A stretch of 46,888 nucleotides of DNA from Candidatus Binatia bacterium (GTDB lineage: Bacteria; Desulfobacterota; Binatia; Bin18), in the NCBI GenBank assembly GCA_022824615.1, contig JAJDZM010000131.1, forward strand, positions 1 through 46,888. Direction: 5' to 3'. The translations under genes and the position numbers were made by a program. Position 1 is the stretch's first letter, and the number at the start of each line of letters is the position of its first letter. This document shows, piece by piece, positions 13,411 to 40,342 of this stretch. The notes beneath the pieces were generated by a model. The model was not told the origin of the DNA and made no database searches. It saw only the letters and a program-made list of their open reading frames with translations.

Positions 13411-13492
13411 CCCTCACCCCTGCCCCTCTCCCAGAGGGAGAGGGGAAAATTCAGTTCCCTCTCCCCTGGAGGGAGAGGGCTAGGGTGAGGGG
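13411..13492. repeat. Palindromic intergenic repeat, family R1 (copy 2)
   Basis: Nested inverted repeats fill the gap between the two E1 subunit genes. The outer arms are CCCTCACCCC and its near complement ending GGGTGAGGGG; an inner perfect hairpin is CCCCTCTCCC-AG-A-GGGAGAGGGG. It shares arm sequences with 14-76 and 40303-40342. Lying inside an operon, it would be transcribed and could affect mRNA stability or the E1-alpha to E1-beta ratio (inference). Confidence 0.75.
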
Positions 13493-22424: not shown

Positions 22425-22479
22425 AAAGAGTAAACGCGCCCTCCAACAGCCATATAGATGCTGGGCACGTTTACTCTTT
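22425..22479. repeat. 55-bp palindromic element R2, copy A (rsmD 3' end)
   Basis: Perfect 12-bp arms AAAGAGTAAACG (22425-22436) and CGTTTACTCTTT (22468-22479). The central part CTCCA...GATGCTGG is shared with copy B at 31340-31395. On the minus strand the arm supplies the last sense codons and the TAA of rsmD (AAA GAG TAA). Copies B and C are in and beside tyrA. Confidence 0.88.
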
Positions 22480-30392: not shown

Positions 30393-31349
30393 ATGTCACC
30401 ACTATTTCATCGTCTGCTTATCGTCGGGGTGGGTCTGATCGGTGGCTCGCTCGGCCTGGCGGCCAAAGCGCGGGGGCTGGTTGAACAGGTGGTTGGCTTT
30501 GGTCGGACCGAAGCCAATCTGAAAATTGCGCTCGAGCGCGGCCTGATTGACGCCTATACCTTCGATCCGGCCGAAGCGGCCCAGGGAACCGACTGCGTTC
30601 TGCTTGCCGTCCCAGTCCAAGCGACCGGCCCGGCCATGCAGCAGTTTCTGCCTTATCTCTCGCCAGGCTGTATTGTGACGGATGCGGGCAGTGTCAAAGC
30701 GCCGGTCGTTGCCACCCTCGAATCCCTTGTCCCCGACTCGCTGCCGTGTGTAGCCGCGCATCCCATTGCCGGGACTGAAAATGCCGGAGCTGGGGCGGCC
30801 TTTGCCACCCTCTTTGAGAGACGTTTATGTGTCTTGACGCCGACTGCCAGGACAAATACAGACGCCCTGGCACGGGTCCGTGCCTTGTGGGAGGGCGTTG
30901 GTATGCGTGTCGAAGAAATGGACCCTGCGATCCACGACCGCATCCTTGCCCAGGTCAGCCATCTGCCCCATCTTATTGCGTTCAGTGTGATGAACGGCCT
31001 CCTTCAGGCGTTTCCTCCCTCAAGAGGAAACGAGTCCTCCATTAGATCCGAGAGGCCGGACACGTTTCCTCTTGCAACCCGACCGCAATCGGACCAAGTC
31101 GATCCGCTCGTATATGCCGGTAGCGCGTTTGCCGACCTGACTCGGGTGGCCGCCAGTCCCGTCGAAATGTGGCGTGACATCTGTCTTGAGAATCGCGCCG
31201 CCTTGCTCGCCGCGATCTCCGGTTTTGAAGCCGCATTGACGCAGATGAAAGCCGCCGTGGCTGAGGGAGACGGACAAGCGCTCTCGGTGGATATTACGCG
31301 GGCCCGCGAGGAACGCCAGCGCCTGACTCGTTTGCGTGAAAAAGAGTAA
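30393..31349 (+). CDS. tyrA: Prephenate dehydrogenase (with in-frame repeat insertion)
   Basis: From ATG 30393 the product is 318 residues, with the NAD(P) motif VGVGLIGGSLGLAA (12-18 is GVGLIGG), DAGSVKAPVV, CVAAHPIAGTENAGAGAA with the catalytic His, QVSHLPHLIAFSVMNGL and AGSAFADLTRVAASPVEMWR. It converts prephenate to 4-hydroxyphenylpyruvate. Between NGLLQ and VYAGSAF there are about 25 residues more than I expect in relatives; residues about 206-228 are encoded by palindromic element R2 copy C and read in frame. The last codons and stop (AAA GAG TAA) lie in R2 copy B. The frame extends further upstream into hisC, but this ATG matches the family start. Confidence 0.92.
   Translation: MSPLFHRLLIVGVGLIGGSLGLAAKARGLVEQVVGFGRTEANLKIALERGLIDAYTFDPAEAAQGTDCVLLAVPVQATGPAMQQFLPYLSPGCIVTDAGSVKAPVVATLESLVPDSLPCVAAHPIAGTENAGAGAAFATLFERRLCVLTPTARTNTDALARVRALWEGVGMRVEEMDPAIHDRILAQVSHLPHLIAFSVMNGLLQAFPPSRGNESSIRSERPDTFPLATRPQSDQVDPLVYAGSAFADLTRVAASPVEMWRDICLENRAALLAAISGFEAALTQMKAAVAEGDGQALSVDITRAREERQRLTRLREKE
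31009..31074. repeat. Palindromic element R2, copy C, inside tyrA coding sequence
   Basis: Perfect 12-bp arms CAAGAGGAAACG (31021-31032) and CGTTTCCTCTTG (31063-31074) span 54 bp, a multiple of three. The centre (GTCCTCCATTAGATC...CCGGACA) aligns with copies A and B. An additional half-arm CGTTTCCTC at 31009-31017 suggests a compound or partly duplicated insertion. The element is translated as PPSRGNESSIRSERPDTF-type residues without a stop. Confidence 0.82.
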
Positions 31350-31395
31350 ACGTGTTCTCCACTAGACACGGGATGCTGGACACGTTTACTCTTTT
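31340..31395. repeat. Palindromic element R2, copy B, between tyrA and aroA
   Basis: Near-perfect 56-bp palindrome. AAAGAGTAAACGTGT (31341-31355) pairs with ACACGTTTACTCTTT (31380-31394), 15 bp perfect and extendable by one A/T pair. It provides the KE-stop of tyrA and ends 6 bp before the aroA ATG. The resulting mRNA hairpin sits across the aroA ribosome-binding region and is followed by TTTTGGGG, so it could influence aroA translation or cause partial termination. Confidence 0.88.
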
Positions 31396-40302: not shown

Positions 40303-40342
40303 CCCCCTCTCCCTAGCCCTATCCCTCAAGGGGAGAGGGAAC
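40303..40342. repeat. Palindromic intergenic repeat, family R1 (copy 3)
   Basis: CCCCCTCTCCCTAGCCCTATCC and the complementary GGGGAGAGGGA form the short version of the R1 element found at 13411-13492. It sits between the coiled-coil gene and hsdM, inside the RM operon, 20 bp before the hsdM start. It was not imported with the island if R1 is specific to this genome. Confidence 0.7.

Follow-up and report, generated by a model that had tools for sequence, protein, structure and literature searches.

Palindromes located in frame within protein-coding genes are known from Rickettsia and Wolbachia (PMC2229807, PMC10969869). The sections of PMC2229807 on the Rickettsia palindromic elements (RPEs) report inserts in 19 protein genes and sizes of 105-146 bp, and they name no mobiliser; the table there lists the RPE target duplication as '?', and the title of a paper cited on Rickettsia palindromes calls an insert ancient. 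The corresponding part of PMC10969869 holds a similar process in other prokaryotes to be conceivable. Two other kinds of short repeat are relevant. Intragenic REPs with GTAG and CGTC tags are described from several bacteria, uvrA genes among them, in the portion of PMC3733652 that treats them, which places REPs mainly between unidirectional and convergent genes. MITEs are presented in the pertinent sections of PMC10969869 and PMC2229807 as non-autonomous, with inverted ends and able to fuse in frame with ORFs, and most of the MITEs listed in PMC2229807 duplicate their target. Our term searches of open-access PMC papers gave no report of such repeats in Binatia.

Here we analyzed a stretch of 46,888 nucleotides from a Candidatus Binatia bacterium (contig JAJDZM010000131.1, hereafter the window), in which a palindrome interrupts the gene tyrA. 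The relevant features are the following.

30393..31349, plus strand: tyrA, encoding a prephenate/arogenate dehydrogenase of 318 aa (Pfam, NCBIfam and AlphaFold2 fold matches).
31009..31017, plus strand: CGTTTCCTC in the left flank of the tyrA element, a direct repeat of 31063-31071.
31021..31074, plus strand: 54-bp palindromic element within tyrA (perfect arms, covariance model, empty alleles in congeners).
31021-31032 and 31063-31074, plus strand: outer arms of the tyrA element, CAAGAGGAAACG and CGTTTCCTCTTG, 12 bp each and perfect.
31340..31395, plus strand: second copy, overlapping the tyrA stop codon and extending into the tyrA-aroA gap; the TAA of the stop codon is within its left arm.
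22425..22479, plus strand: third copy, between coaD-like and rsmD-like minus-strand genes (names given by eye).

The Pfam domain PDH_N covers residues 21-174 of TyrA, and PDH_C is split into two stretches (Pfam scan, E up to 1e-3); the NCBIfam matches are prephenate dehydrogenase models, every one of them under its curated cut-off. The insert corresponds to about residues 210-228. The initial annotation had described a 54-bp palindrome with perfect 12-bp arms, a multiple of three without an in-frame stop, and all of this is exact. Its interval, 31009-31074, ends at the right position and starts too early, as the palindrome begins at 31021 and CGTTTCCTC at 31009-31017 is flanking tyrA sequence. 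The 20-25 added residues that it had estimated are exactly 18 codons.

Alignment of the tyrA DNA delimits the insertion: all six congeners (G001-G006) are without exactly 54 bp at the insert. The match measures 954 bp in the genome that carries the window (the own genome), 900 bp in four of the congeners, and 897 and 894 bp in the remaining two, whose matches start or stop a residue or two early. Because all six lack exactly these 54 bp, the tyrA element is an insertion of 18 codons, as had been proposed; the same congeners carry the repeat family elsewhere in their genomes. The occupied allele is known from a single metagenome-assembled genome. At the protein level, 38 TyrA sequences were supplied and one was excluded for a stop; in the alignment of the other 37 the insert residues are present only in the window TyrA (0/36 others). 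A TyrA that is 71% identical to that of the window is found in CAMBFS010000110.1 (L069), which is titled a Klebsiella pneumoniae MAG, a title that looks wrong.

The AlphaFold2 model of TyrA has a mean pLDDT of 91.5 and its fold matches the solved prephenate dehydrogenases 4wji and 3ggp. It shows a coil at 207-231 between two helices, situated within the Pfam dimerisation domain, with confidence below 50 at 218-220 and 222-227; the insert stands out by its low confidence in a model that is confident otherwise. The sequence alignments of TyrA to 4wji and 2g5c are broken at the insert. Judging from this model, the 18 inserted residues probably form a disordered loop.

The tyrA palindrome belongs to a dispersed family with an element of approximately 54 bp, composed of AAAGAGKAAACGTGTCC, about 20 variable nucleotides and GGACACGTTTMCTCTTT. 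The copies of the own genome have core lengths of 47-56 nt plus 3, element length being defined here, by an end convention set in this analysis, as core plus 3 nt. A pattern consisting of the two arms matched the own genome (4.98 Mb) 50 times in forward and 52 times in reverse orientation; the reversed control had 0 matches in either orientation. A covariance model gave at least 148 matches in this genome, among the best 150 of 1877 candidates scored; subtracting 16 opposite-strand repeats leaves 132 places, which contain all 51 places of the two-arm pattern, and subtracting three duplicates leaves at least 129 distinct copies.

The two-arm pattern is present in 9 of 58 relatives, namely the own genome, all six congeners and the two genomes searched of another genus of the family, g2, and among 395 genomes drawn evenly from the phylum it was found in the own genome alone; the pattern demands near-perfect cores, and diverged forms elsewhere could escape it. 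Viral contigs gave 0 exact matches to it.

The arms form a conserved stem: 1735 of 1935 pairs are Watson-Crick, compared with a mean of 1617 (sd 7.7, maximum 1643) in 1000 shuffles in which the right arms were redealt among copies. Compensated cells number 88, of which 47 fall at the K/M position; the copies were found by a model containing the stem, which biases them towards pairing. Five copies of the own genome, G000 (C143, C169, two in C184, and C217), resemble one another well into their flanks, GCGGCRC[copy]TCCCTCC, which looks as though a larger repeat containing the palindrome had been copied.

Within the window, the covariance model, which was trained on 35 copies including the three of the window, detected exactly three sites at E up to 1, each matched on both strands and with better-strand E values of 1.2e-20 to 1.4e-18. 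The tyrA copy scores 64.4 bits with this model (R1). The same three sites are the only ones with perfect 12-bp arms up to 72 nt apart. The two related copies that had been recognised in the initial annotation are those at 22425-22479 and 31340-31395, and the three align as one family. At the tyrA stop codon, G001, G002 and G006 have only the left half of the copy; from its sequence, this form looks like the product of a deletion between short repeats resembling GACATGA. The window also contains several occurrences of a second type of repeat, CCCTCTCCC..GGGAGAGGG (28-75, 13418-13492 and 40304-40342).

The whole-genome search assigned 34 of the 129 listed copies to the inside of called genes, 30 to positions across a gene end and 65 to intergenic regions, with genes called by a home-made codon-score script. 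Coding sequence makes up about 87% of the sampled DNA; copies are thus strongly underrepresented in genes, where about a quarter of them are nevertheless located. The 34 in-gene copies affect 30 genes; a Pfam family was assigned to 27 of the encoded proteins (E up to 1e-5, the 1e-3 cut-off being used for TyrA) and none to the other three. Affected families include GIDA (MnmG), MraW (RsmH), UvrA, cobalamin adenosyltransferase and MltA, and two copies each are present in methionine synthase, in a UPF0004/Radical_SAM/TRAM_2 protein (RimO-like) and in YfiO. Some N-terminal copies (e.g., L160, L166, L180, L183 and L211:7813-8871) may lie outside the true gene.

The in-gene copies use the three reading frames 14, 18 and 2 times. 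The rare frame is the one that contains a TAA in the T variant of the element, and the two copies in this frame belong to the G variant. Cores that are a multiple of three make up 27 of the 34 copies in genes and 58 of the 95 elsewhere, a modest excess (Fisher one-sided p 0.04). Seven of the 34 in-gene cores are not a multiple of three; the uvrA copy is among them and nonetheless adds 54 bp net.

Occupied and empty alleles were compared with the congeners at eight sites, chosen out of the 129 listed copies as lying in four searchable regions. Relative to empty congener alleles, the net gain is 54 bp in tyrA and in uvrA, 51 and 54 bp at sites 904 and 1270 of a metH-like gene, 54 bp at each of sites 9878 and 10079 of a RimO-like gene, and 54 and 55 bp at two intergenic sites. 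The gain is a multiple of three at all six in-gene sites. It equals the element length at six of the eight sites and exceeds it by 1 nt at the other two, and no target duplication beyond 0-1 nt was found at any of the eight. Three in-gene copies are shortened, all of them by frame-preserving lengths: at RimO-like site 9878 the copy lacks 6 nt in G005 and 48 nt in G001, and at site 10079 the copy of G006 lacks 12 nt.

Among seven genomes the uvrA copy is present only in the own genome and G002, and the presence of copies is at odds with the species grouping, which suggests that alleles have been exchanged within the genus through recombination, or that copies have been lost repeatedly. G001, a single-contig genome with 8% contamination, has two metH-like loci, C1:102479-105102 and 5161782-5164459, one occupied and the other empty at site 1270. 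Near this site the metH-like gene of G003 (L266) contains a different palindrome, GTAGGGGCAATTCATGAATTGCCCCTAC, of the GTAGGGGC type, which adds 18 bp net relative to empty alleles. Two repeat families are found near one permissive place, and not every difference between alleles is due to the family described here.

For tyrA itself, G005 has the cleanest empty site, and two histories can be considered. According to one, the element entered in the own lineage only, at a site whose sequence already matched the right arm, CGTTTCCTCTTG, as in G003 and nearly in G004. This would take a single event and no deletions, and the locus tree is weakly resolved (support 56-61, too low to date the insertion). 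We nevertheless consider this history rather unlikely: a G005-like site, CCCT^CAACC, accounts for the insert as a clean palindrome of 54 bp without additional bases, and G003 has exactly the tyrA sequence expected after deletion between the two CGTTTCCTC repeats, that of G004 differing by one base. The other history, an earlier entry at a G005-like site followed by deletion in G003 and G004, may be the likelier one, although the locus tree does not discriminate between the two.

The flanks of the 129 listed copies have a symmetric consensus, BGCYNN^NNRGCV. On the two sides, Y is found at position 3 in 71% and 67% of the copies, C at 4 in 41% and 43%, and G at 5 in 59% and 51%, and A is avoided at position 6 (2% and 4%). 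When a weight matrix was built from 64 copies, it distinguished the remaining 65 from random positions (p 1.5e-24), and in-gene copies show the target preference at least as well as intergenic ones. A one-sided target could appear symmetric if elements were inserted in random orientation. However, the scores of the left and right half targets are not significantly anti-correlated (correlation -0.09, p 0.31), and G at -5 is present on both sides in 35 copies, on the left only in 41, on the right only in 31 and on neither in 22 (Fisher p 0.21); a symmetric target is thus preferred over a one-sided one, though a mixture may contribute. For a longer or copied palindrome the stem would be expected to extend into the flank. 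The opposite is seen: in 120 copies (9 of the 129 were excluded for related flanks), positions +-1 to +-4 form 77 complementary pairs compared with approximately 132 in shuffles, and the bases at +-1 are identical in 46 cases versus 29.6 in shuffles.

Taken with the empty alleles, these results make it very probable that the tyrA insert is a copy of a small non-autonomous mobile palindrome that was inserted in trans, is tolerated in genes and can later be deleted. A symmetric target is what is expected of a two-fold symmetric protein complex, and this is the main reason for proposing an enzyme: a putative trans-acting recombinase or transposase would insert the element near the centre of the degenerate sequence 5'-BGCYNN^NNRGCV-3', without duplicating the target. 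The element is mostly 54 bp long, and two of the three frames are open through its arms, the third being closed by the TAA of the T variant. In-gene insertions can therefore keep the frame, provided that the variable loop also lacks stops. Out-of-frame insertions would be purged by selection, and the survivors would be translated as extra loops, linkers or tails, of which the insert that TyrA appears to tolerate would be one. Copies would later be lost through deletion, some of them between short repeats.

A more specific model can be put forward tentatively, in which an integrase joins a hairpin-forming palindrome, without duplication, into a 12-bp target that is two-fold symmetric and anti-palindromic at its centre, the point of joining being the middle of the target; the family would have spread within a single Binatia lineage, with the coding sequences of its host as a regular niche. 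We found no description of such integration for REPs, RPEs or MITEs in the relevant sections of PMC2229807, PMC3733652 and PMC10969869. No transposase or longer parent element was identified in the RAYT loci or among exact-arm pairs in G001 and G006. These two single-contig genomes have 72 and 37 exact-arm matches, among which no consistent pair around a gene was seen by eye; diverged ends escape such a search.

An alternative mobiliser is a RAYT (Y1 HUH) transposase, which would move the palindromes as REPs via single-stranded hairpins. A hairpin element with a high copy number and no target duplication would fit, RAYT-family proteins are encoded in the own genome, and GTAGGGGC-type palindromes are found in and beside one RAYT-like gene as well as near site 1270 of the G003 metH-like gene. 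However, 16 of 32 RAYT loci were scanned (two of the 16 being the same gene), and none of them contains a copy. Co-occurrence is also against it: three carriers of the repeat, G004, G005 and G007 (90-96% complete), have no RAYT match at E up to 0.001, whereas G008, which is without the repeat, has 22 RAYT matches, fragments included. The tags at the hairpin foot are GTAG in 3/129 copies (chance 0.026), CGTC in 3/129 (0.072) and GGAG in 12/129 (0.063), and the target appears symmetric rather than one-sided. RAYT as the mobiliser is thus unsupported by loci, co-occurrence or tags, and we regard it as quite unlikely. The RAYT-like gene mentioned above, L034:1093-1794, matches its family in two stretches with inverted GTAGGGGC-type repeats between them, as if palindromes were located in frame inside the transposase itself.

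Alternatively, the hairpins might be functional RNA or regulatory elements (terminators, operators or mRNA stabilisers) maintained by selection, with the coding copies as by-products. The strong stem with its compensated cells and the 30 copies overlapping a gene end would be consistent with this. So would the excess of intergenic copies between divergent genes: among the 62 of 65 intergenic copies with two called neighbours, 23 are between ++, 20 between --, 18 between divergent genes and 1 between convergent genes, for expected numbers of 40.1, 10.3, 9.4 and 2.2, respectively; these expectations are rough and weak evidence, being derived from eight partly redundant stretches, four of them the congener tyrA region. 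Convergent genes are, however, where terminators would be expected, so that the placement does not fit a terminator role even with rough expectations. Moreover, the window has 0 Rfam matches at gathering thresholds, and presence among close congeners is patchy. A functional element as the primary explanation is therefore very improbable.

Ribosomes bypass hairpin inserts in some mitochondria, and the tyrA insert could in principle be skipped in expression, through translational bypass or RNA excision. The sizes of insertions and deletions at the compared in-gene sites keep the frame, which would be needless under bypass, and this explanation is barely credible. Finally, TyrA loops vary in length, and that of the congeners is a few residues longer than in L069 and L070, but an ancestral TyrA loop lost in relatives is effectively refuted by the empty congener alleles, the TyrA alignment and the fact that the residues are encoded by a dispersed repeat.

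The mobile palindrome thus remains the preferred reading, and the initial annotation, which had taken the insert for a mobile-like element, was largely right and is supported. Neither of the findings that it had named as refuting was made, as the congeners lack the inserted residues and the three palindromes of the window proved to be related on alignment. It had also likened the element to those of Rickettsia; the likeness holds for the behaviour and does not extend to membership, as length and host differ. As far as they are described in the sections cited above, RPEs (RPE-1 and others) and the protein-coding palindromic repeats of Wolbachia share with the Binatia family that they are dispersed and that a good share is in frame in conserved genes. 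In contrast to RPEs, the Binatia element is 54 bp long and belongs to another phylum, and its empty sites, the absence of target duplication and the symmetric target have been resolved.

With the GTAG- and CGTC-tagged REPs, as covered in the portion of PMC3733652 concerned, the family shares short palindromes located wholly inside ORFs. It differs from them in being a single longer palindrome with tags not beyond chance, in its near absence between convergent genes, and in having no RAYT link in the loci and genomes searched, where the carriers G004, G005 and G007 are incomplete assemblies.

MITEs usually have a parent insertion sequence, and none was found for the Binatia element in the exact-arm search of G001 and G006. 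Bacterial MITEs such as Correia/NEMIS, ERIC, RUP and QMITE1 of Coxiella, as they are portrayed in the sections consulted of PMC10969869 and PMC2229807, are likewise non-autonomous, with inverted ends and in-frame ORF fusion, and unlike most of those listed the Binatia element does not duplicate its target. As RPEs and intragenic REPs behave alike, the Binatia repeat is a new family of a known phenomenon, one for which the data on insertion are unusually clear, and it is a separate case of what is best known from Rickettsia.

Work on how palindromes come to be in coding sequences has concentrated on Rickettsia. In the Binatia family, both occupied and empty alleles are available within one genus, so that the insertion point, target preference, filtering by frame and loss can be read directly, and the resolved empty sites give leverage on the question of how such palindromes integrate. 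At the six in-gene sites compared, the insert amounts to 17 or 18 residues for TyrA and the MetH-, RimO- and UvrA-like proteins; MnmG- and RsmH-type proteins, recognised through Pfam, carry inserts too. Conserved enzymes thus appear able to accommodate inserts of one kind at many positions, and the family constitutes a natural insertional scan of proteins.
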